Shown piece after piece: positions 38,858-49,765 of a stretch of DNA of 64,000 nt. A program made the translations under genes and the position numbers. The DNA is from Hamadaea flava. Its GTDB lineage: Bacteria; Actinomycetota; Actinomycetes; Mycobacteriales; Micromonosporaceae. The notes below the pieces were generated by a model. That model was not told where the DNA came from and made no database searches. It saw only the letters and a list, made by a program, of their open reading frames with translations. The stretch is taken from NCBI RefSeq assembly GCF_024172085.1, contig NZ_JAMZDZ010000001.1, forward strand, positions 496,001-560,000, written 5' to 3'. How positions within the stretch are numbered: the stretch's first letter is position 1; every line of letters begins with the position of its first letter.

Positions 38858-39109
38858 TCACGGCCAGGTGAGGCCGAGCACCTCGGCAAGTTCCTTGTCG
38901 GCCGGCTCGACCAGGTGGCGGCCGTCCGGGAGGGCGACGACCGGGATCGACATGCGCCCGTCCTGCACCTGTTGGACGTAGTCGCGCGCGGCGTCGTCGG
39001 CGTCGGTGTCGATCCAGGCGTACTCGACGCCGTTGCGGTCGAGGAACCGCTTGGTGCGTACGCAGTCGCCGCACCAGGTCGCGCCGTACACCGTGAGGGT
39101 GTCAGTCAT
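38858..39109 (-). CDS. Glutaredoxin-like protein (mycoredoxin type)
   Basis: An 83-residue thioredoxin-fold protein: MTDTLTVYGATWCGDCVRTK, redox motif CGDC (residues 13-16), the cis-proline in MSIPVV, and PDGRHLVEPADKELAEVLGL. Length and motif match the NrdH/mycoredoxin-like proteins of actinobacteria, which use mycothiol or thioredoxin reductase for reduction. Mycoredoxin-1 has a CxYC motif, so CGDC suggests a related subfamily. It acts in the cytoplasm. No operon partner is apparent. Confidence 0.85.
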   Translation of the reverse strand: MTDTLTVYGATWCGDCVRTKRFLDRNGVEYAWIDTDADDAARDYVQQVQDGRMSIPVVALPDGRHLVEPADKELAEVLGLTWP

Positions 39110-39166: not shown

Positions 39167-41917
39167 CTACCTGAGGCCGGCTTTGGCGCGTACGCGGGCG
39201 GCCTGGGCGTCGTCGAGACCGTCGAGAACGGACAGTGCCTGCCGCCAGGCCTCCCGGGCGTCGCCGGTCCGGCCGGTCGCCGCGTACGCGTCGCCGAGGC
39301 GGTCGAGGGTGGCGGCCTCGTCGATCGGCTGCTCCGCGTCGCGCAGCAACGGCAGCGCCCGGTGGTAGCAGGCGATCGCGTCGTCGAGCCGGCCGAGCCC
39401 GGCGTACGCGAAACCCATGCTGTCCCAGGCGAGCGCCTCGCCACCGGGGCAGTCGTGCTGAGCGAGCAACGCCTGGGCCGCACCGCAGTCGGCGAGCCCC
39501 TGCTCGTACGCGCCGAGGTGGGCCGCCGCCCAGCCGAGGCAGTTGAGCGCGCGGCCTTCGCCGATGGGGTCGCCGAGGACGCGGAACACGTCCCGTGCCG
39601 CCTCGGCGTGTGTCACCGCGTCGCCGGGCCGGCCGAGATAGTCGGTGTTCAGCCAGCTCAGCCCGAGCCGGGCGTGGCCCTGACCGGCCAGGTTGCCGGC
39701 CGAGGCGAACAGCTCCAGGGCGGCGGTCAGGTGCCGCACGGCCTGGTCGGCTCCCTCGGTGAAGGCGTGCACGCGGGCCAGGACGAGGTGCGACCGGGCC
39801 TGGTCGAGAATGTCCCCCGCCGCTTGGGCGGCGTTCAGCGCCGTCGTCTGGCAGCGCAGCAGCGCCGGCCAGTGGGCGTACTGCTGCTGGTAGCCGGCGA
39901 CGGCCCAGGCGATCTCGCAGGCGTAGGCCCAGCGCCCGGCAGCCACGCAGCGGTCCACGACGACGGTCAGCGGATGCTCCTCGGCGGCGAACCAGGCGAC
40001 CGCCTCGGCCCGCCCGGAGATCTCCGTGATCGTGACGCCGGGCTGGGGACCGGCCGGGGCAGGCCGCACCCGATGCGGGCTGAACTCCGCGTTCGCCCGG
40101 TACGCCGTGTGCAGGTAGTGCTCGGTGAGCCGCAGTTCGGCCTCCGGGTCGGCGTCGGCCGCCGCGATGTCGTCGGCGTACTGGCGGAGCAGGTCGTGCA
40201 GTTCGTAACGCAGGTGGCGGCGTTCGGCCAGCAGGTTGGCCCGCATCAGCTCGGTGAGCGCCCGCCCGGCGTCGGCGGCGGGCACGCCGGCGAGACTGGC
40301 CGCGGCGGCGACGGTGACCGTCCCACCCGGATGCAGGCTGAGCAGCCGGAACAGTCTGGCCGCAGCTGGACTCAAGTCCTGGTAGGACTGCTCGAACGCG
40401 GTGCGCAGGTCGCTCATGAGGTCGTCGTCGACGACCGCGCCCAGGCCGCTGCTCTGCTCGAACCGGCGGCTCAGCTCGGCCAGCGACGCGTGCGGCCGCA
40501 ACGCGACGTGCGCGCCGACGACGGCGAGCGCGAGCGGCAGACCGCCGCAGCGGCGCAGGATCTCGTCGGCGGCGGCGGGTTCGCCGCGCATGCGGTCCGC
40601 GCCTATCCGCGTACGCAGCAGGTCGCGTGCTTCCCCATCAGCCAGCGGCTCCAACGGCACCGGCTGCGCGCCGTGCGAGACGACCAGCCCGGTCAGCTGC
40701 TTGCGGCTGGTGATCAGGGTGAAGCAGCCGGGCGCGGCCGGCAGCAGCGGGCGTACCTGATCGGGGTGGCGGGCGTCGTCGAGGACGACCAGCATCCGCC
40801 GGCCGTGTAGCAGACTCCGGAACAGCGTCGCCTGAGCGTCCACTCCGGACGGTACGCGGTGGGCGGGCACTCCGAGCGTGTCGAGGAACCCGCGCAGCAC
40901 ACCCGCGGCGTCGGCGGGCGTCGTGTCCGGCGCGAATCCCCGCAGGTCGGCGTACAGCTGACCGTCGGGGAACCGGTCGGCGGCCGCATGTGCCCAGGTC
41001 AGGGCGAGCGAGGTCTTGCCGACCCCGGCGGTCCCCCAGACCACGGCGATGCTGTGCCGGCCCGGGACGGCGTCGAGCGAGGCCAGCTCGGCGGCCCGGC
41101 CGACGAAGCCCGCGCACGGCTGTGGCAGCGCGGCGGGGACCAGTTCGATGGCGCCCGGCGCGGGCGGGGCGGCCAGCTGGGCGTCCTGCCGCAGGATCGC
41201 CAGGTGCAGGTCGCGTACGCCGGGACCGGGCTGGATGCCGAGCTGCTCGGTGAGACTGACCCGCAGGTGCTCGTACGCCTCCAGCGCCTCGGCCTGCCGG
41301 CCGCTGCGGTACAGGGCGAGCATGAGCGTCCGGGTCAGCGGCTCGCGCAGCGGATCCTCGTCGATCATGCGCTCCAGGCGCGGGATGAGCGTGTCGTAGC
41401 GGCCCAGGGCCAGCTCCGCCTCGGCGAGCTGCTCGTACGCGCGCCGCCGTTCCTCCGCCAGCCGCTGGCGCTCGATTCCGGCGTACTCGGAGGTCACGTC
41501 GGCCAGCGCCTCGCCCCGCCACAGGTGCAGCGCCTGATGGAGCAGGCCGGCGGCGTTCGCCGGGTCGGTGGCGGCCACCGCCGCGGCGCGGTGCACGGTC
41601 GCCCGGAAGGTTGTCAGGTCGATGTCCTCGTCTCCTGCCTCCAGCAGATAGCCGCCGTCCAGGGATCGGATCACCGCCGCCCGTGCCCCGGCGGCCACGG
41701 TGCGCCGCAGCGCCGACACCGCCCCGTGGACCTGCGTACGCGCCGACGCGGGCGCCGCCTCGCCCCAGATCGCGGGGATCAGCCGGTCGAACGTGACGAC
41801 CCGGTTGGCATGGAGCAGCAGGTACGCCAGCACGCCTCGATGCTGGGGCCGGACGGCGGCGGCCGCCCCGCCGGAGAGGCTGACTTCCAGAGGTCCCAAG
41901 AGCCCGAACGTCGGCAT
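39167..41917 (-). CDS. AfsR/SARP family transcriptional regulator
   Basis: A 916-residue multidomain regulator. It has an OmpR-like winged helix (about residues 1-95, FGLLGPLEVSL), a bacterial transcriptional activation domain (96-245), an NB-ARC ATPase (P-loop GTAGVGKTS at 295-303, Walker B MLVVLDD) and C-terminal TPR repeats (from about 650). Such proteins activate secondary-metabolite clusters by binding direct repeats near promoters. The ATG at 41917 has GGAGGG 8 bases upstream. It lies 53 bases after the signal peptidase gene, at the end of the Cys-rich peptide locus, and is a good candidate to control it. Confidence 0.92.
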   Translation of the reverse strand: MPTFGLLGPLEVSLSGGAAAAVRPQHRGVLAYLLLHANRVVTFDRLIPAIWGEAAPASARTQVHGAVSALRRTVAAGARAAVIRSLDGGYLLEAGDEDIDLTTFRATVHRAAAVAATDPANAAGLLHQALHLWRGEALADVTSEYAGIERQRLAEERRRAYEQLAEAELALGRYDTLIPRLERMIDEDPLREPLTRTLMLALYRSGRQAEALEAYEHLRVSLTEQLGIQPGPGVRDLHLAILRQDAQLAAPPAPGAIELVPAALPQPCAGFVGRAAELASLDAVPGRHSIAVVWGTAGVGKTSLALTWAHAAADRFPDGQLYADLRGFAPDTTPADAAGVLRGFLDTLGVPAHRVPSGVDAQATLFRSLLHGRRMLVVLDDARHPDQVRPLLPAAPGCFTLITSRKQLTGLVVSHGAQPVPLEPLADGEARDLLRTRIGADRMRGEPAAADEILRRCGGLPLALAVVGAHVALRPHASLAELSRRFEQSSGLGAVVDDDLMSDLRTAFEQSYQDLSPAAARLFRLLSLHPGGTVTVAAAASLAGVPAADAGRALTELMRANLLAERRHLRYELHDLLRQYADDIAAADADPEAELRLTEHYLHTAYRANAEFSPHRVRPAPAGPQPGVTITEISGRAEAVAWFAAEEHPLTVVVDRCVAAGRWAYACEIAWAVAGYQQQYAHWPALLRCQTTALNAAQAAGDILDQARSHLVLARVHAFTEGADQAVRHLTAALELFASAGNLAGQGHARLGLSWLNTDYLGRPGDAVTHAEAARDVFRVLGDPIGEGRALNCLGWAAAHLGAYEQGLADCGAAQALLAQHDCPGGEALAWDSMGFAYAGLGRLDDAIACYHRALPLLRDAEQPIDEAATLDRLGDAYAATGRTGDAREAWRQALSVLDGLDDAQAARVRAKAGLR

Positions 41918-41970
41918 CGTCGCCCTCCAGTCGCGCGCGCCCGGGGGTGGTGGGCGCACCGATTGGCAGC

Positions 41971-42441
41971 CTAACCGATCATGGGCGCATCTTGATCTGT
42001 CGATAATGGAGCGCGTGCCAGCCGCCGGACCGCCACCCCTACGACCAGGGCGGCGTCGAGGAAGCCGAACTCCCGCGAGTCGTAGCTCACGGCCGGATTG
42101 TCGCCGAGCACGACGAGCCGGCCGGGCGGAACGCGCCCGTGTTCGTCCCCGATGGACAGTCGCGCGGGGACGGGATCACCGGCGACCGCCACGACCCGTT
42201 TCACGAGCAGCCGGTCGTCCGGCAGCATCCGGCGTACGCGCGACGAATCGGTGACATCGGCGATCGCGGACAGCTCCGGGGTGCCGGCCGGACTGCGGAA
42301 CACCACCGGCATCCCCGGCCGCACCCGGTCGGCGGGCGTACGCCGGACCAGCAGGCGGTCCCCCGGCGCGTACGCGGGCAGCATGCTGTGGCCGTCCACG
42401 GTGACGATCAGCAACCGGCGTCGCAGCAGATCCCAGATCAC
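41971..42441 (-). CDS. S26 family signal peptidase
   Basis: A 156-residue protein of the type I signal peptidase family. The nucleophile is in VDGHSMLPAYAPGD (Ser19) and the general base in LLVKRVVAVAGDPVP (Lys81), with the C-terminal GRLVVLGDNPAVSYDSREFG. The usual N-terminal membrane anchor is short or missing, so it may depend on the preceding exporter for location. The GTG start overlaps the ABC gene stop (GTGA), linking it to export of the 62-residue Cys-rich peptide, whose leader ends in a V-x-A type site. Confidence 0.88.
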   Translation of the reverse strand: MIWDLLRRRLLIVTVDGHSMLPAYAPGDRLLVRRTPADRVRPGMPVVFRSPAGTPELSAIADVTDSSRVRRMLPDDRLLVKRVVAVAGDPVPARLSIGDEHGRVPPGRLVVLGDNPAVSYDSREFGFLDAALVVGVAVRRLARAPLSTDQDAPMIG

Positions 42442-44234
42442 GATCCGACCTCCTGCGCATATCCGGCCGCCTGCAGCCGGAACAGCCGCGCGTACTCGCC
42501 GTCCAGGGCCAGGAGCGACGAGTGGTCGCCGGTCTCGGCGACGCGGCCGTCCCGCAGGACGTAGATGAGGTCGGCGTCGCGGACGGCCGACAGGCGGTGC
42601 GAGATCAGCAGATTCGTCCGGCCGAGCCGGGCGGTCCGCAACGACCGGTGCAGCTCGTGTTCAGCCTGCGGGTCGAGGCCCGAGCTGGGCTCGTCGAGGA
42701 TCATCAGGTCGCAGCCTTCCCGCAGCAGCCCCCGGGCGACGGCGACGCGCTGCCACTGGCCGCCCGACAGCACCGTCCCCGCTTCATCGTCGCCGTCGAA
42801 GAACGCCCGGGTCAGCATGGTCTGATAGCCGCGCGGCAGCTCACGCAGGACGGAGTGGACTCCGGCGCCGGCGGCGGCGGCCTCGACCCGGCCCGGATCG
42901 TCTCGGGCGGTCAGATCGCCGAGCGCGATGTTGTCGGCGGCGCTCACGTCGTAGGTCATGAAATCCTGGAACACCGCCCCGATCCGCGTACGCAGCTGGG
43001 CCGGGTCCGCGTCGCGCAGATCCACGCCGTCCCAGCCGATCGTGCCCTGGCTCGGGTCGTAGAGCCGGCACAGCAGCTTGACCAGTGTGCTCTTGCCCGA
43101 GCCGTTCAGGCCGACCAGCGCCACCGTCGAGCCGGCCGGCAGCAGCAGGTCGACCCCGCGCAGCACCCACGGATGGCTCTCGTCGTACCGGAACCACACG
43201 TCGCGCAGGCGTATCCCCTGCCGCAGCGACGGCACCGGCACGGGGACGGGCGGCACGGGCAGATCCGGCGGCGTACGCAGAATCTCGGCGTACGCCGCGA
43301 AGAACATGCCCTGCGCGTGGAGGTTGGCCGTCGTGGCGACCACCATGGCCAGGCCGGACTGCGTACTGGCGATGGCGGCGAGGAAGATCGACACGTCGCC
43401 GAGGGACAGTTCGCCGCGCCGGGCGGCCAGGGCGGCCCAGATCAGCCCGGCTCCGGCCACGACGGCGGTGAGCGCGGCCAGTCCGGTGTGCCCGCCGACC
43501 TCCCGCCGTTCCATCCGGCGGATCGCGGTGTCCGCTGTGGACCGTTCGCGCATCATCAGCGTACGCAGGAACCCGCCGGTGCCGAACAGGCGGATCTCCT
43601 TGGCGGCCTGCGTACCGGTGAGGAGCTGGCTGTAGAAGTACTCCCGGCGATGGTTGGGCTCGACGCCGATCTGCGCGGCGGCCCGGCGTCGGGCGAGGTA
43701 CAGCTCGGCGACCAGCATCGGCACGGCGGCGCACACCAGCACCACCGTCATCGCCGGGCTGAGAACGAGCAGCGAGCCGATGAAGCCCGCCAGGAGCAGC
43801 ACACCCCGGCCGAGCCCGAGGACGCCGTCGAGCAGCTGACCGGCGTTGTCGCAACCGCGTCGGGCGACCCGCAACCGGTCGAGGTACGCCGGATCCTCGA
43901 ACCGGCGCAGCCCGACGAGACGGCCGGTCGCGGCGAAGAGGCGTTCGGTCGCTACGGCGCTCAGCCGGCGGCTCGCCTCGTTGCTCAGGAACAGGCTGAT
44001 CCGGGGCAACGACGCGGCGATCACGCCGAGCGCGGCGAGCCCGACGACGTAGGCCGTGATCGGTCCCGTCCCGGCCAGCCGATCCAGCAGCAGCTTGGTC
44101 AGCCAGGCGAGCAGCACCGGGACGACCGCCTCGGCCACCGTCACGGCGACGTACGCGGCCGCCACACCCGGGGCGGCCGCGCCGACCAGTCCGGCGAATT
44201 GGCGTACCGCGCCGGACCGGGGCTGATCACGCAT
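42438..44234 (-). CDS. ABC exporter, fused membrane and ATPase domains
   Basis: A 598-residue half-transporter with six membrane helices in residues 1-310 and an ATPase in the rest: Walker A GLNGSGKST, ABC signature VLSGGQWQRVAVARGLL, Walker B LMILDEPSSGLD, H-loop ISHRLSAV. There is no N-terminal C39 peptidase domain, consistent with a separate peptidase encoded next. It probably works as a homodimer to export the peptide of this locus. The ATG overlaps the TlpA-like gene by 8 bases. A drug or lipid cargo is the alternative. Confidence 0.9.
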   Translation of the reverse strand: MRDQPRSGAVRQFAGLVGAAAPGVAAAYVAVTVAEAVVPVLLAWLTKLLLDRLAGTGPITAYVVGLAALGVIAASLPRISLFLSNEASRRLSAVATERLFAATGRLVGLRRFEDPAYLDRLRVARRGCDNAGQLLDGVLGLGRGVLLLAGFIGSLLVLSPAMTVVLVCAAVPMLVAELYLARRRAAAQIGVEPNHRREYFYSQLLTGTQAAKEIRLFGTGGFLRTLMMRERSTADTAIRRMERREVGGHTGLAALTAVVAGAGLIWAALAARRGELSLGDVSIFLAAIASTQSGLAMVVATTANLHAQGMFFAAYAEILRTPPDLPVPPVPVPVPSLRQGIRLRDVWFRYDESHPWVLRGVDLLLPAGSTVALVGLNGSGKSTLVKLLCRLYDPSQGTIGWDGVDLRDADPAQLRTRIGAVFQDFMTYDVSAADNIALGDLTARDDPGRVEAAAAGAGVHSVLRELPRGYQTMLTRAFFDGDDEAGTVLSGGQWQRVAVARGLLREGCDLMILDEPSSGLDPQAEHELHRSLRTARLGRTNLLISHRLSAVRDADLIYVLRDGRVAETGDHSSLLALDGEYARLFRLQAAGYAQEVGS

Positions 44235-44769
44235 GGGCGGGTACGCGGTCCGGCAGTTCCTCCACGCGCATGCCGTTGGCGGTCACGACGCCGTCGGACA
44301 GTACGCACAGACCGGGGAACCCGGCGACGGCGAACGCCTCGGACAACGGACCGGAGTGGGGCTCGACGACGACGCGGGCGGTGCCTGCCAGCTGATCGGC
44401 GTACTCGCTGAAATCCTGCGCGTCGGTGACCACGACGGCCAGGACCTTCTCGCGCGGGAAGCGCGCCGCGTAGTCGGCGAAGCGCGGGACGGCGGCGCGG
44501 CAGGGCTTGCAGGTGGGGCTGAAGAAGCCGACGAGCGCGTCCCCGGTCAGTTCGGCCGAATCGACGATGTCACCGTCCAGTGTGGTCGTGGTGAAGGCTC
44601 CGACCCGGCTGCCCGGCTGGAGCACCGGATTCTCGGGCAGCGTGAAGGCGTTGTCCTGGCTCTGCTGGGCGGTCTGCTCGCGGAGCCGCCGCAGTACGCC
44701 GAACAGCAGGAACAAGTTGAGCAGGGTGAGCACGGCGAGGATGATGACCGCCGCGGTGAGAGTCGCCAT
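44227..44769 (-). CDS. TlpA/MauD-like membrane-anchored thioredoxin-fold protein
   Basis: A 180-residue protein with one N-terminal membrane helix (AAVIILAVLTLLNLFLLFGV) and a thioredoxin fold outside the membrane; the redox motif is CKPC in LVGFFSPTCKPCRAAVP, followed by the cis-proline in VAGFPGLCVL. It resembles MauD, which with MauE handles disulfides of the methylamine dehydrogenase small subunit. Here it lies directly downstream of an eight-cysteine peptide gene and upstream of the exporter, so it probably forms or reshuffles the peptide disulfides. Confidence 0.88.
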   Translation of the reverse strand: MATLTAAVIILAVLTLLNLFLLFGVLRRLREQTAQQSQDNAFTLPENPVLQPGSRVGAFTTTTLDGDIVDSAELTGDALVGFFSPTCKPCRAAVPRFADYAARFPREKVLAVVVTDAQDFSEYADQLAGTARVVVEPHSGPLSEAFAVAGFPGLCVLSDGVVTANGMRVEELPDRVPAHA

Positions 44770-44798
44770 TTCCGGCCTCCATGCCGTTGAGAGGAAGA

Positions 44799-44826
44799 CG
44801 GCGGGGCCCGGTGCCGGACCCCGCCG
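44799..44826 (-). terminator. Strong hairpin just after the Cys-rich peptide gene
   Basis: CGGCGGGG pairs with CCCCGCCG and an inner CCGG with CCGG, with one mismatch and a two-base loop (44799-44826), 13 bases after the peptide stop. It stands before the redox and export genes and would let the peptide be made in excess of its processing proteins. Confidence 0.75.
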
Positions 44827-44838
44827 AACGGGGCTGCG

Positions 44839-45027
44839 TCAGCAGCCACCGCAGCTGGCGTAGCTGGTGGAGCAGCCTTCGTTGAGGCAGCACACCCGGG
44901 TCACCTTCTGGCCCAGGTAGCTACGCGGCGCCGGACAGTCCTGGCACCACGACGTCACCGAGCATCCGGCGGCGACGCGGGCCTTGGGGACGACGAGCCC
45001 CAGCAGGCGATCGGCCAACTTACCCAT
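44839..45027 (-). CDS. Cys-rich 62-residue precursor peptide (candidate RiPP or MauA-like)
   Basis: A 62-residue peptide: a basic amphipathic leader MGKLADRLLGLVVPKARVAA, then a core with eight cysteines (22, 28, 31, 46, 47, 52, 59, 62) and one tryptophan, ending CSTSYASCGGC. The ribosome binding site AAAGGAG with 7-base spacing is among the best in the window, and a hairpin follows the stop, both expected of a highly expressed structural gene. The leader ends in V-A-A before Gly-Cys, compatible with signal-peptidase cleavage. Downstream are TlpA, an ABC exporter and an S26 peptidase; a MauE-like protein is divergent. I recognise no named family; function is inferred. Confidence 0.75.
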   Translation of the reverse strand: MGKLADRLLGLVVPKARVAAGCSVTSWCQDCPAPRSYLGQKVTRVCCLNEGCSTSYASCGGC

Positions 45028-45150
45028 GGGAATCTCCTTTCTCGTGGGTTCGGCAGCACGCTGTCACGCGTCGCTACGATCCGGCTAACCGCCGACTACT
45101 GGGGCCCGGACCTCTTGCATCCCGGTGGCCACGATGGATACCGTCCGCTC

Positions 45151-45675
45151 GTGCCCTACCTTGAGCTGGCCTGCCGCCTGGTGCTGGTGACCGTGTTCGC
45201 CACCGCGGTGGCGGGGAAGATCTCCAGCCGCGCGGCCTGGACCGCATTCGTCGACTCGCTGGACCGCATGGACGCCGTCCCGGTTCGTCTGCTCCACCCA
45301 GCCGCGTGGGCGTCACTGGCCGCCGAGATCGCGATCTCCCTGCTCCTGGTCGTGCCCGGCCGCCTCTTCGCGGTCGCCGGCTTCGTGATCGCGATCGGAC
45401 TGCTCGGCTCGTTCACCGCCGCCATCGCGAGCGCGATCCGCCGTGGCAAGAACGCGCCCTGCCGATGCTTCGGCGCCTCGGTCACCCCGCTGGGCTGGAG
45501 TCACGTCGGGCGCAACTCGGGCCTGATGGTGCTGGCCGCGGTGGGCTTGACCGCGGCGCTCCGCGGCGGTCCGATCGACATCGCTCCAGCGGTCGTCGCC
45601 GCCGCCACTGGCGTCGTCGTGGGCCTGCTCGTCACCCGTCTCGACGATCTGCTCGCGCTGTTCCGCACCCCCTGA
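45151..45675 (+). CDS. MauE/DoxX-type redox membrane protein
   Basis: A 174-residue protein with four membrane helices, starting VPYLELACRLVLVTVFATAV. It has the MauE hallmark NAPCRCFGASVTPLGWSHVG then RN (C-x-C-F-G...W...RN), in which the cysteine pair exchanges electrons across the membrane. It probably reoxidises or reduces the TlpA-like partner. The gene is divergent to the Cys-rich peptide, the two starts 123 bases apart, so they likely share a control region. Start GTG 45151 is chosen by family length; its ribosome site is weak. Confidence 0.82.
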   Translation: MPYLELACRLVLVTVFATAVAGKISSRAAWTAFVDSLDRMDAVPVRLLHPAAWASLAAEIAISLLLVVPGRLFAVAGFVIAIGLLGSFTAAIASAIRRGKNAPCRCFGASVTPLGWSHVGRNSGLMVLAAVGLTAALRGGPIDIAPAVVAAATGVVVGLLVTRLDDLLALFRTP

Positions 45676-46136: not shown

Positions 46137-46580
46137 CTAACCGAGCGCGGCGGCGATCGCGGCGCCCACGAAGACGACCTGAAGCGCGGTACGCAGCGGC
46201 AGCGGGGTGGCGGGCTTGCCGCCGAGGGTCAATCCTCGCCGCGCGGCCAGGACGTTCGCGGGGAACATCGCGAGCATCAGCAACGCGAGGCAGATCGCGG
46301 CGATCGGGGCGAGCGGCTTGATCAGCAGTCCCACCGCGCCGGCGAGTTCGAGGACGCCGGTCAGCGTGACGAGCAGGTCCGGCCGGGGCAGCCGCGGCGG
46401 GATCATGGCGATCATGTCGCGCCGCCAACTGGGCAGGAAGTGCACGACGCCGGTGGTGACGAACATGAGCGCGAGCCCGCCGCGCAGGGCGGGCTGCCAG
46501 GTGTCGAGGGCGTCCACGCCGACGAGCCCGAGCAGGCGCAGGACGGCGAATCCGCCGATGAGAGCGATGAGGGGAGCCAT
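46137..46580 (-). CDS. DoxX-like membrane protein
   Basis: A 147-residue protein with four membrane segments: IALIGGFAVLRLLGLVGVDA, GGLALMFVTTGVVHFLPSWR, DLLVTLTGVLELAGAVGLLI and later PLPLRTALQVVFVGAAIAAA. The pattern matches DoxX/SURF4-like proteins, often redox-stress responsive. The ribosome site GGAGACGGGAAG precedes the ATG. Two palindromic sites with a perfect TTGACA in one of them lie immediately upstream (46592-46644), so it is almost certainly repressed by a MarR-like regulator not encoded next to it. Confidence 0.82.
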   Translation of the reverse strand: MAPLIALIGGFAVLRLLGLVGVDALDTWQPALRGGLALMFVTTGVVHFLPSWRRDMIAMIPPRLPRPDLLVTLTGVLELAGAVGLLIKPLAPIAAICLALLMLAMFPANVLAARRGLTLGGKPATPLPLRTALQVVFVGAAIAAALG

Positions 46581-46591
46581 CTTCCCGTCTC

Positions 46592-46644
46592 CAATCTTGT
46601 CGTTGCCAAGATTGCTCTCCCGGCGAGAACTTGTCAACGACAAG
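46592..46644 (-). promoter_or_regulatory. Promoter with two palindromic operators upstream of doxX
   Basis: Site A (46592-46614) is CAATCTTG-7 bases-CAAGATTG; site B (46630-46644) is CTTGTC-AAC-GACAAG. Their centres are 34 bases apart. On the minus strand TTGACA (46637-46632) lies in site B, and a -10 at the right distance would overlap site A. The form suits a MarR-type repressor. Confidence 0.75.
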
Positions 46645-47023: not shown

Positions 47024-48040
47024 TCAGCGTTTGCGGCCGACGACCACGCCGTTCGCTCCAGGCGCGTCCAGTGGGACGACCCGGACGTCGCTGAAACCTG
47101 TGTCGGACAACCAGGCGGCGTACTCCACATCGGAGTAGTTCCGGCCGCCTTCGGTCTCGACGATCATGTTCATCCCCATCAGCGCCGCCTCGGCCGGACC
47201 GGTCCGATCGCCGTTGAGCAGCCACTCCGAGACGATCAGGACGCCGTCGGGCGGCAGCGCGGCGTAGCACTTGGCCAGGAGTTCGCGGTTCGTGGCCTCG
47301 TCCCAGTCGTGCAGGATCATGCTCAGCAGGATCACGTCGTAGCCGTCCGGCAGCACCGGCTCCGCGCGGAAGTCGCCCGGCACGGTCTCGATCCGGTCGG
47401 CCAGCCCGGCCGCCGCGATCTTCCGGTCCGCGATCTCGCACACGTGCGGCAGGTCGTAGACCGCGGCTTTGAGGTGGCTGAAGTTCCGGCACAGTTCGAT
47501 CGGGTACGCGCCACCGCCGCCACCGACGTCGAGCAGGCGCGCATGCTGCCCGAAGTCGTACGCCGAGGCGAGCGTGCGTGCGGTGAAGATGGAGGTGGAG
47601 AACATCGCCTCCCAGAACTCGGCGAGCATCGCCGGGTCGCCGGTCTCGAAGGCCGACCGATCGGTGTCGGGATCCCAGGTCAACGGACGGTCGGTACGCA
47701 GCGCTTCGCCGATGCGGTGCCAGGGCAGGTAGGTCTTCACGTCGCAGTACCGGACCTGGCCGCCGAAATAGTAGGGGCGGCCGGCGACGAGGAACTCCTC
47801 GGCCAGCGGCGAGTTGCGGTAGCCCTCGCCGTCGCGCTCCAGCAGACCGAGCGAGGCGCACGCGGCCAGCAGCATGTCGGCCGGCCGGTCGGCCAGCCCG
47901 AGTTCGTCGCGGAGGTCGGCGACGGTGACGACCCGGCCGCCCGCGATCCGGGTGAACAGGTCCAGCTCGACGGCGACCGCCAGAGTCTTGAAGCTCCAGA
48001 AGCCGGTCACGAGCCGCATCAGCGGAGTGGGAGTGATCAT
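47024..48040 (-). CDS. SAM-dependent O-methyltransferase (plant/antibiotic type)
   Basis: A 338-residue methyltransferase: an N-terminal winged-helix dimerisation domain (to about 110, MRLVTGFWSFKTLAVAVELD) and a Rossmann domain with the SAM loop RLLDVGGGGGAYPIELC and the catalytic histidine region LSMILHDWDE. This is the family of small-molecule O-methyltransferases such as those of polyketide tailoring. It lies 10 bases downstream of the TetR gene on the same strand, and the FAD monooxygenase is divergent, so the three may modify an aromatic compound. Confidence 0.9.
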   Translation of the reverse strand: MITPTPLMRLVTGFWSFKTLAVAVELDLFTRIAGGRVVTVADLRDELGLADRPADMLLAACASLGLLERDGEGYRNSPLAEEFLVAGRPYYFGGQVRYCDVKTYLPWHRIGEALRTDRPLTWDPDTDRSAFETGDPAMLAEFWEAMFSTSIFTARTLASAYDFGQHARLLDVGGGGGAYPIELCRNFSHLKAAVYDLPHVCEIADRKIAAAGLADRIETVPGDFRAEPVLPDGYDVILLSMILHDWDEATNRELLAKCYAALPPDGVLIVSEWLLNGDRTGPAEAALMGMNMIVETEGGRNYSDVEYAAWLSDTGFSDVRVVPLDAPGANGVVVGRKR

Positions 48041-48050
48041 CCCGCCATTC

Positions 48051-48602
48051 TCATGTAGACGGTCGCAGCCCGTCCAGCAGCACAGTGAGAAATGCGTCGA
48101 TGTGTTCGGGCGAGCCCGACCGGGCGACGGCGTACGCGGACTCGCCGATGACCGCCGTGAGGACGCCGAGCGGGACGTCGTCGCGTACGCGGCCGTGGCG
48201 TTGCGCGGCGGTGAGCATCTTCTCGACCGCGGTCACCAGTTCGCCGCGAAGTGCCGTGGTCTCCGGCGCGGACAGGCCACGCAGGTTGTCGCCCGCCGCG
48301 TGGTGCGCCCCTTGGAACGCCATCAACTCCGCGAGGAAGGTACGCAGCGCCTGCTCCGGGCGATCCGAGCCGGACAACTCGTGCGCGCGGGCGACCACGG
48401 GGCGCAGCAGTCCCGCGACGGCCGCGTCCAGCAGCGCGTCCTTGCCGCCGAACGCGCGCACGATCGTGCCCGAGCCCAACCCGGCCCGCTTCGCGATGAC
48501 CTCGACGGTGAGCGTGGCGTCCGGCTCAGCGAGCAGCGCCGTGGCCGCGTCGAGGGCCAGCTGCCGATTGCGTACGGCGTCGGCCCGGCTCGGAGTTGAC
48601 AT
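48051..48602 (-). CDS. TetR family regulator
   Basis: A 183-residue regulator with the TetR helix-turn-helix in residues 14-60 (ALDAATALLAEPDATLTVEV, then IAKRAGLGSGTIVRAFGGKD), and a helical ligand domain. The ATG at 48602 has GGAAGGG upstream. It is divergent to the FAD monooxygenase, with a 7+2+7 palindrome (48626-48641) between the starts. It should repress that gene and itself, and probably the co-directional methyltransferase. Confidence 0.9.
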   Translation of the reverse strand: MSTPSRADAVRNRQLALDAATALLAEPDATLTVEVIAKRAGLGSGTIVRAFGGKDALLDAAVAGLLRPVVARAHELSGSDRPEQALRTFLAELMAFQGAHHAAGDNLRGLSAPETTALRGELVTAVEKMLTAAQRHGRVRDDVPLGVLTAVIGESAYAVARSGSPEHIDAFLTVLLDGLRPST

Positions 48603-48625
48603 CTGGAACGTCCCTTCCACATAAT

Positions 48626-48641
48626 TGGAATGAGCATTTCA
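48626..48641. promoter_or_regulatory. Candidate TetR operator
   Basis: TGGAATG-AG-CATTTCA, a 7+2+7 palindrome with one mismatch in an AT-richer patch between the divergent TetR and monooxygenase starts. Confidence 0.6.
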
Positions 48642-48664
48642 GTTATCGTACTCGAGGAGTCGCC

Positions 48665-49765
48665 ATGAACAAGCGCATCCTGGTCTCCGGCGCGAGCATC
48701 GCCGGGCTGACCCTGGCGTACTGGCTGACCAGGCACGGCTTCCAGGTCACGGTGGTCGAACGGGCCGAGCGGCTGCGCGCGGGCGGCAACGGCGTCGACG
48801 TACGCGACCAGGCCACCGACGTCGTCGCCGAGATGGGCCTGCTATCGCAGATCCGGGCGGCCGCCACCGACGTACACGGCATGAAGTTCGTCGACGCCGC
48901 CGATCGGGCGGTGGCCCGGATCGACATCCGCGACCCGGCCAGCCTGGAGATCATGCGGGGCGACCTGGTGGCGTTGCTGCACGGCGTGACCGACGTCGAA
49001 TACCTGTTCGGCGACTGGATCACCGCGATTCGCCAGGACGACGACGGCGTGACCGTCGACCTCGCGAGCGGCGGCACACGCCGGTTCGACCTGCTCGTCG
49101 GGGCCGACGGGCTCCACTCGGCGACCCGGCGGCTGGCGTTCGGCCCGGAGGCTGACTACCTCACCTTCAAGGACCACTACTTCGCCTTCGCCGACGCCGA
49201 CTCCTCGCTCGGCGAGGACCGCTGGGTCACCATGTTCAACACGCCGGGCAAGATGGCCGGGCTCTACCGGTCCGGCAACCACGCGCAGGCCAAGGCGTAC
49301 TTCATCGTCCGGTCGAAGCCGATCACGTTCGACTACCGCGACGTCGGCGAGCACAAGCGCCTGGTCCGCGACGCGTTCGGCGGCGATCGATCGTGGCGGA
49401 TTCCGGAGCTGCTCGACGCCGCGTTCGCCGATCCCGAGTTCTACTTCGACGCGCTCAGCCAGGTGAGGATGCCGACGTGGTCCACCGGTCGCGTGGCGCT
49501 GACCGGGGACGCCGCCTGGTGCGCCTCCCCCGCGTCGGGCGCCGGCGCCGAACTGGCCCTGGTCGGGGCGTACCGGCTGGCCGAGGAGCTGGCCGCGGCC
49601 GAGGGCGACCACCGGATCGCCTTCGCCCGGTATCACGCGGCGCTTCGGGGACTGGTCGCGAAGAAGCAGCGGATCGGGGTGAACGTGCGGGTCATGGTGC
49701 CCCGGACCGAGGGCGGGCGACGCGTACGCGACTTCGCCGCCCGCCTCCGGTCCGGCCGGAACTAA
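48665..49765 (+). CDS. FAD-dependent monooxygenase (PHBH fold)
   Basis: A 366-residue flavoprotein monooxygenase. The FAD site is ILVSGASIAGLTLAYWLTRH, the DG motif is LLVGADGLHSATRRL, and the second FAD motif is VALTGDAAWCASP (GD). Such enzymes hydroxylate aromatic or polyketide substrates using NAD(P)H and oxygen; relatives of the TetX type inactivate tetracyclines or rifamycins. The ribosome site GAGGAG is 6 bases upstream. Divergent TetR control suggests induction by its substrate. Confidence 0.9.
   Translation: MNKRILVSGASIAGLTLAYWLTRHGFQVTVVERAERLRAGGNGVDVRDQATDVVAEMGLLSQIRAAATDVHGMKFVDAADRAVARIDIRDPASLEIMRGDLVALLHGVTDVEYLFGDWITAIRQDDDGVTVDLASGGTRRFDLLVGADGLHSATRRLAFGPEADYLTFKDHYFAFADADSSLGEDRWVTMFNTPGKMAGLYRSGNHAQAKAYFIVRSKPITFDYRDVGEHKRLVRDAFGGDRSWRIPELLDAAFADPEFYFDALSQVRMPTWSTGRVALTGDAAWCASPASGAGAELALVGAYRLAEELAAAEGDHRIAFARYHAALRGLVAKKQRIGVNVRVMVPRTEGGRRVRDFAARLRSGRN

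Follow-up and report, generated by a model that had tools for sequence, protein, structure and literature searches.

The locus and its genes

The DNA analysed here, hereafter the window, is a 64,000-nt stretch of the Hamadaea flava genome (NCBI RefSeq assembly GCF_024172085.1, contig NZ_JAMZDZ010000001.1, positions 496,001 to 560,000 of the forward strand), and coordinates below are those of the window. A reading made from the sequence alone (the sequence-only reading) had proposed that it encodes an undescribed export system for a peptide with eight cysteines. An open reading frame (ORF) for this 62-residue peptide is present at 44839-45027 on the minus strand, as that reading had placed it, and is preceded by a ribosome-binding site. 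Pfam and NCBIfam agree with the assignments made for the genes that follow on the same strand, i.e. a TlpA/MauD-like protein, an ATP-binding cassette (ABC) exporter without its own peptidase domain (no C39) and an S26 peptidase, and the MauE-like identity of the divergent gene and the SARP identity of the last gene were likewise borne out. The order on the minus strand is thus peptide, TlpA-like protein, ABC exporter, S26 peptidase and then SARP, with the MauE gene divergent; the first four genes form a single operon; the TlpA and ABC genes overlap by 8 bases, and the ABC and S26 genes by 4 bases. The parts are the following:

44839-45027, minus strand: precursor peptide gene, 62 residues, eight Cys, homologues known; sole match in the window to the precursor profile A2 described below
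44968-45027, minus strand: leader, residues 1-20, MGKLADRLLGLVVPKARVAA, ending in a V-x-A version of A-x-A
44842-44967, minus strand: predicted mature peptide, 42 residues, eight Cys, if the cut falls after Ala20
45034-45039, minus strand: ribosome-binding site AAGGAG, 6 nt upstream of the peptide ATG
44227-44769, minus strand: TlpA/MauD-like thioredoxin-fold protein, membrane-anchored, CKPC motif (Pfam AhpC-TSA, 29.1 bits, cut-off 26)
42438-44234, minus strand: ABC exporter, membrane and ATPase parts (ABC_tran, 95.2 bits; no C39)
41971-42441, minus strand: S26 peptidase, Ser19/Lys81 (Peptidase_S26, 64.3 bits; sigpep_I_bact, 63.7 bits, cut-off 47)
45115-45675, plus strand: MauE-family membrane protein, CxCFG motif (PF07291, 85.6 bits, cut-off 27); GTG at 45151 is probably the start rather than 45115
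39167-41959, minus strand: SARP/AfsR-type regulator (BTAD, 145.9 bits), probably starting at ATG 41917

A precursor family with a conserved leader and a variable core

In DNA as GC-rich as this, eight cysteines in a small ORF are in themselves nothing out of the ordinary (one ORF of 50-75 residues with at least eight Cys in the window versus two in the reversed window), and the case therefore rests on relatives. Profile A2, which includes the window peptide and was built after dropping three weak sequences out of 54 (L084_7578, L113_5547 and L112_8557), matched nothing else in the window at E ≤ 1, and gave no match of at least 20 bits with at least four Cys in the reversed sequence of 73 loci (1.03 Mb). 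It is therefore homology, and not Cys content alone, that raises the peptide above chance. A scan of genome contigs with the window peptide gave 270 pattern matches, none confirmed. The possibility raised in the sequence-only reading that the peptide might turn out to be a known enzyme subunit found no support: the window peptide has no family match in Pfam or NCBIfam, the 51 members of A2 gave no plausible family in either library at E ≤ 0.1 (per library, four chance matches, each to a single member), and in the PDB a profile search at E ≤ 10 matched three receptor chains but nothing from methylamine dehydrogenase. AlphaFold prediction for the peptide and eight relatives gave a predicted local distance difference test score (pLDDT) of 43.9 and a predicted template modelling score (pTM) of 0.18.

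Scanning of 152 loci and the window with A2 yielded 167 precursors, of which 119 were left at 60% identity; no filter on Cys number was applied, although the profile is itself weighted towards cysteine columns. The counts do not include the short loci L001-L013 and L024-L051, most of which recur in longer stretches fetched afterwards. The number of cysteines is even in 112 of the 119 precursors (four in 2, six in 53, eight in 45, ten in 11 and twelve in 1; binomial p 1.8e-25, with paralogues counted as independent), so that the homologues do keep their cysteines, as the sequence-only reading had required, and the cysteines of the core would be paired in disulfides. Precursors are 52-77 residues long, and the predicted mature peptides have a median length of 41 and a median net charge of +1, with a Cys spacing that differs widely from core to core. 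A Shine-Dalgarno (SD) core lies upstream of 99 of the 119 starts, compared to 8.3% of random sites.

The mean pairwise identity is 38% for the leaders (20% when shuffled) and 27% for the cores (25% when shuffled). That is, the leader is conserved and the core variable, the contrast expected of ribosomally synthesized and post-translationally modified peptides (RiPPs). The leader consensus, x-L-x-x-L-x-D-R-L-L-x-x-L-V-P-K-A...A-x-A, is probably amphipathic; in the logo (n = 119) D reaches 68% and R 57% at -15/-14 and A reaches 84% at -3, the anchoring pattern forcing A at -1 and permitting only A, V, S, T or G at -3. In 112 of the 119 precursors an A-x-A motif is found among the ten residues that precede the first Cys, against a mean of 26.8 and a maximum of 39 in 500 leader shuffles. 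In the window peptide these positions are taken by Val (-3) and Ala (-1), residues that signal peptidases accept. Gly-Gly was found among the eight residues preceding the first Cys in just 5 of the 119 precursors, and a lipobox ([LVI][ASTVI][GAS]C) at the first Cys in just 2, so that the family fits neither double-glycine peptides nor lipoproteins.

Co-occurrence of the precursor with the export module

A search with the window peptide alone detected relatives in 10 of the 354 genomes of its own family (E ≤ 1e-3, own genome counted), and ten neighbourhoods selected in this way were fetched from the nine others. MauE, TlpA, ABC, S26 and SARP are all present at five of them (L015, L018, L019, L020 and L022); L021 has ABC, TlpA and SARP, L016 has SARP alone, and the cassette is absent from L014 and L023. 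The tenth (L017) was rejected as a false match, with no Cys-rich leader peptide there. With a profile of 11 peptides (A1), matches were obtained in 114 of the 354 genomes at E ≤ 0.01, at most 17 candidates being scored per genome. The peptide, MauE, TlpA, ABC and S26 occur together in 17 of 20 further peptide-selected neighbourhoods; two of the remaining three run into contig ends, and the third (L070) has SARP alone.

Searching with the window ABC exporter separated 138 of the 354 own-family genomes (E ≤ 1e-100) by a clean gap from the others (about 1e-86 or weaker). When genomes are selected for a precursor at E ≤ 1e-5, this ABC is present in all 72 (Fisher p 9e-37, kinship ignored), and at the looser cut-offs of 1e-3 and 0.01 it is present in 94 of 95 and 106 of 114, respectively. 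In a class-wide sample the ABC was found in 28 of 393 genomes (own genome excluded), and 20 ABC-selected loci were fetched from 18 of these 28, all belonging to other families. A precursor lies within 5 kb at all 20 loci, TlpA at 20, and MauE and S26 at 19 each. The sequence-only reading's expectation that homologues sit beside the TlpA-ABC-S26-MauE genes is thereby upheld from both directions of selection. In a phylum sample the ABC occurs in 2 of 296 genomes, one being the own genome, which suggests that only some families have the module. One precursor has named relatives in Streptomyces, Embleya and Yinghuangia, and relatives of TlpA, MauE and ABC above score thresholds are present at 8/8 loci from these genera, with S26 at 5/8.

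An adjacent precursor was found at 25 of 39 own-family ABC-selected loci, 18 of which come from genomes in which no precursor had been picked up by the first profile, and at 9 of 14 further cassette loci. SARP lies near 23 of the 39, 11 of the 20 other-family and 5 of the 14 further loci.

One exporter and many dispersed precursors

Precursor matches are far more numerous than exporters in several genomes: at least 58 in G074, 37 in G325, 32 in G344, 20 in G345 and 14 in G346, counted as profile matches at E ≤ 0.01 with at most 150 candidates scored per genome and most matches not inspected singly. The corresponding numbers of ABC copies (E ≤ 1e-100) are 1, 2, 1, 1 and 1, and G347 also has 1. 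In G345 and G346 the sole MauE-TlpA-ABC-S26 cassette has no precursor match in the 18 kb around it, and the sole cassette of G344 has one in its fetched surroundings; in G074 and G347 the ABC and S26 genes are paired and TlpA is located elsewhere. In G074, 33 precursors in 20 regions were fully read, of which 32 have an even number of Cys and 30 an SD core. The proposal of an export system is thus supported, but not its restriction to one peptide, since the system extends far beyond a single cluster. Loci L160-L164 (G344, G345, G346, G347 and G074) are hub exporters in single copy. The opposite extreme is G350, a 14.1-Mb genome with a contamination estimate of 10%, in which the cassette ABC is present 19 times. 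In the own genome at least five ABC copies were counted (the window, L092, L093, L094 and 1371716-1373452).

Conserved residues and membrane sides of the machinery

Among aligned relatives above score thresholds, S19 and K81 of the S26 peptidase are each conserved in 90/90, as expected of the catalytic residues of signal peptidase I; the CxxC cysteines of the TlpA-like protein are conserved in 99/99 and 98/99, C116 and C118 of the CxCFG motif in 77/77, in keeping with the MauE family, and the ATPase motifs of the ABC exporter are conserved as well. The window ABC gave no C39 match in Pfam, arguing against C39-type export; bacteriocin_ABC (TIGR01193) matched its C-terminal part only, with 132.8 bits (cut-off 523.85).

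As regards topology, Arg 27, 28 and 30 of the TlpA-like protein, right behind the membrane segment, are conserved in 84, 89 and 89 of 99 relatives, and the number of Lys/Arg is 3.5 after the segment versus 0.3 before it (73 sequences), a count that is biased because the segment-finding pattern requires a basic residue after the segment. In MauE, about 5.5 Lys/Arg were counted in each of loop 1 and the CxCFG loop, as against about 0.3 or fewer in the remaining loops. By the positive-inside rule, the conserved Arg and the charged CxCFG loop would place both redox motifs on the cytoplasmic side. In S26 relatives, a hydrophobic stretch followed by Arg precedes the catalytic part (19-residue mean of at least 1.6 in 33 of 89, median 1.52).

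Proposed mechanism and alternative explanations

Together, the gene content, the conserved leader, the even Cys number, the A-x-A motif, the catalytic residues and the co-occurrence point to a leader-guided ABC secretion system for disulfide-rich peptides, in which S26 would cut at A-x-A and MauE/TlpA would handle the disulfides; we consider this probable. In such a system, the ribosome would make a 52-77-residue precursor with a conserved leader and a hypervariable core, mostly with 6, 8 or 10 Cys. The ABC exporter would recognise the leader and not the core, so that one exporter could serve many cores. The Ser/Lys dyad of S26 would cut behind A-x-A, taking the job that the built-in C39 does at Gly-Gly in bacteriocin exporters, and MauE (CxCFG) and the TlpA-like protein (CxxC) would form a membrane redox pair making or reshuffling disulfides. 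SARP would turn the cluster on, and the product of the window would be a secreted peptide of 42 residues bearing at most four disulfides. A bacteriocin-like role in competition between bacteria has, in our estimate, about an even chance. More tentatively, and with slightly less confidence than that, the module may represent a general actinobacterial route in which the common leader is the export ticket for a single MauE/TlpA/ABC/S26 hub, many scattered and fast-changing precursors (at least 58 matches in one genome) being kept as an arsenal without duplication of the machinery, and disulfide formation and leader cutting possibly preceding export, at the cytoplasmic face.

A number of observations weigh against the proposed system. 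The peptide-selected loci are not independent, because they were chosen by the peptide and, in the second set, 17 of the 20 come from one genus. No adjacent precursor was found at 14 of the 39 own-family ABC-selected loci, eight of which carry an ATP-grasp maturase instead and six neither (two of the six, L123 and L124, are located at contig ends), nor at L161-L164 and L172 among the further 14; G347 has the ABC yet no precursor among the matches listed. A looser ORF search (Cys-rich, SD, A-x-A) at 10 of the 11 precursor-less loci without ATP-grasp, L163 being excluded, gave two weak, unconvincing candidates. Peptide, TlpA, MauE and S26 are found together at only 13/39, 18/20 and 2/14 of the own-family, other-family and further loci, and MauE, S26 or SARP is absent near some cassettes. 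The window S26 lacks the N-terminal hydrophobic stretch of its relatives, and a cytoplasmic TlpA domain and CxCFG loop would fit poorly with oxidation outside the cell.

These last points lead to the strongest of the alternatives, namely that oxidation and leader removal take place on the cytoplasmic side of the membrane and are coupled to the ABC exporter, as in C39 systems, and that a folded, leaderless peptide is exported. The conserved TlpA arginines, the Lys/Arg-rich CxCFG loop of MauE and, with the bias noted, the distribution of Lys/Arg around the TlpA segment favour it, as does the window S26, whose gene overlaps that of the ABC and whose product has no hydrophobic N-terminal stretch. 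However, the positive-inside rule is a rule of thumb, and the hydrophobic stretch and Arg of the S26 relatives correspond to the arrangement of ordinary signal peptidases, in which the catalytic part lies outside. Maturation of methylamine dehydrogenase by MauE/MauD is also thought to be periplasmic, and on balance we regard the cytoplasmic arrangement as unlikely. It is less probable that the core is modified by an enzyme encoded elsewhere, giving a RiPP with more than disulfides. An ATP-grasp relative is present at eight own-family and one of the 20 other-family ABC/TlpA loci, and the module can therefore serve modified peptides, but the window has no such relative at E ≤ 1e-4, and its 13 scanned proteins include no known RiPP modifier (two methyltransferases and an FAD enzyme lie within 10 kb).

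An explanation that we rate slightly lower still is that the cysteines bind copper or zinc and that what the module produces and secretes is a metal-binding peptide. The density of cysteines is high, and MauE distantly resembles HvfX of copper-binding RiPPs (12.4 bits, cut-off 80); yet the even Cys number in 112 of the 119 precursors and the CxxC partner are expected for disulfides and unneeded for metal, and the Cys spacing varies widely among cores. Finally, the MauE and MauD-like neighbours could suggest a small enzyme subunit akin to the methylamine dehydrogenase light chain, which is cysteine-rich like the peptide. The cores are hypervariable, however, and the library and PDB searches described above gave neither a plausible family for the 51 members nor a methylamine dehydrogenase chain, which makes a subunit very improbable.

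Comparison with known systems

The closest precedent is decRiPPter (Kloosterman et al. 2020, PMC7794033), whose text describes three Streptomyces candidate families that contain mauE, and in one case also mauD, each together with a precursor of eight or more Cys, and proposes a role in RiPP maturation. The window cluster shares with these families MauE (in one of them MauD) and a precursor of at least eight Cys; their precursors are likely homologous to the present family, and the core idea of a MauE-associated Cys-rich RiPP is to be credited to that study as far as its text goes. The claim of an undescribed system thus holds in part: in the text of PMC7794033 no mention was found of a leader family common to the precursors, of an A-x-A site or of dispersed precursors, and neither S26 nor signal peptidase occurs in its main text. 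Beyond decRiPPter, a literature search that did not reach most subscription papers or supplements turned up nothing about the leader, a role of S26 or dispersed precursors. The leader family would turn the hint of one mining study into a defined, searchable family, and puts many compact disulfide-rich scaffolds on offer. It also raises three testable questions: can S26 stand in for C39 when export is guided by a leader, what are the roles of MauE and TlpA/MauD, and is the leader enough for one exporter to serve tens of unrelated cores?

Double-glycine bacteriocins combine leader-guided ABC export, a dedicated leader peptidase (C39) and hypervariable cores, all features that the present system would share, but they have C39 and Gly-Gly where the window system has a separate S26 and A-x-A. 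Glycocins such as sublancin have thiol-disulfide oxidoreductases in the cluster, i.e. dedicated redox proteins for a disulfide-bearing peptide as in the window, which differs by its MauE/TlpA pair, its leader and the absence of a glycosyltransferase among the 13 scanned proteins. The same kind of redox pair lies beside a cysteine-rich small protein in methylamine dehydrogenase maturation; the window peptide is unrelated in sequence and the window adds ABC and S26, and in agreement with the sequence-only reading no dehydrogenase subunit was found among the 13 scanned proteins. In prochlorosins one modifying enzyme, a lanthionine synthetase, serves many dispersed precursors. The present family would likewise rely on a single machine for tens of precursors that share a leader, whereas what is shared is an exporter/peptidase/redox module and not a lanthionine synthetase.

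Some clusters of graspetides (of the TIGR04187 kind) carry the same ABC/TlpA module, but these have an ATP-grasp maturase, of which the window has no relative at the threshold given above. The module adjoins an ATP-grasp relative at L117-L121, L125, L126 and L128. The one copy scanned (L125) scored 307 bits with TIGR04187 (cut-off 350), and at L120 a small protein by the ATP-grasp gene ends in a Cys-bearing tail.

Other features of the window

One further feature lies within the cluster, in the interval between the peptide and TlpA genes:

44799-44826, minus strand: 12-bp hairpin (fold, centroid -27.7 kcal/mol), a possible candidate attenuator

The hairpin does not stand above shuffled sequences (z -1.17), and the repeat search gave no inverted pair there. 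Directly past the SARP gene, 38858-39109 (minus strand) encodes a small glutaredoxin-like protein, a possible additional redox part. A DoxX-like membrane protein, weakly MauE-like (22.6 bits, cut-off 27), is encoded close to the cluster at 46137-46601 (minus strand). The region 47024-49765, with adjacent genes for an O-methyltransferase, a TetR regulator and an FAD-dependent enzyme, looks like a separate small-molecule locus.

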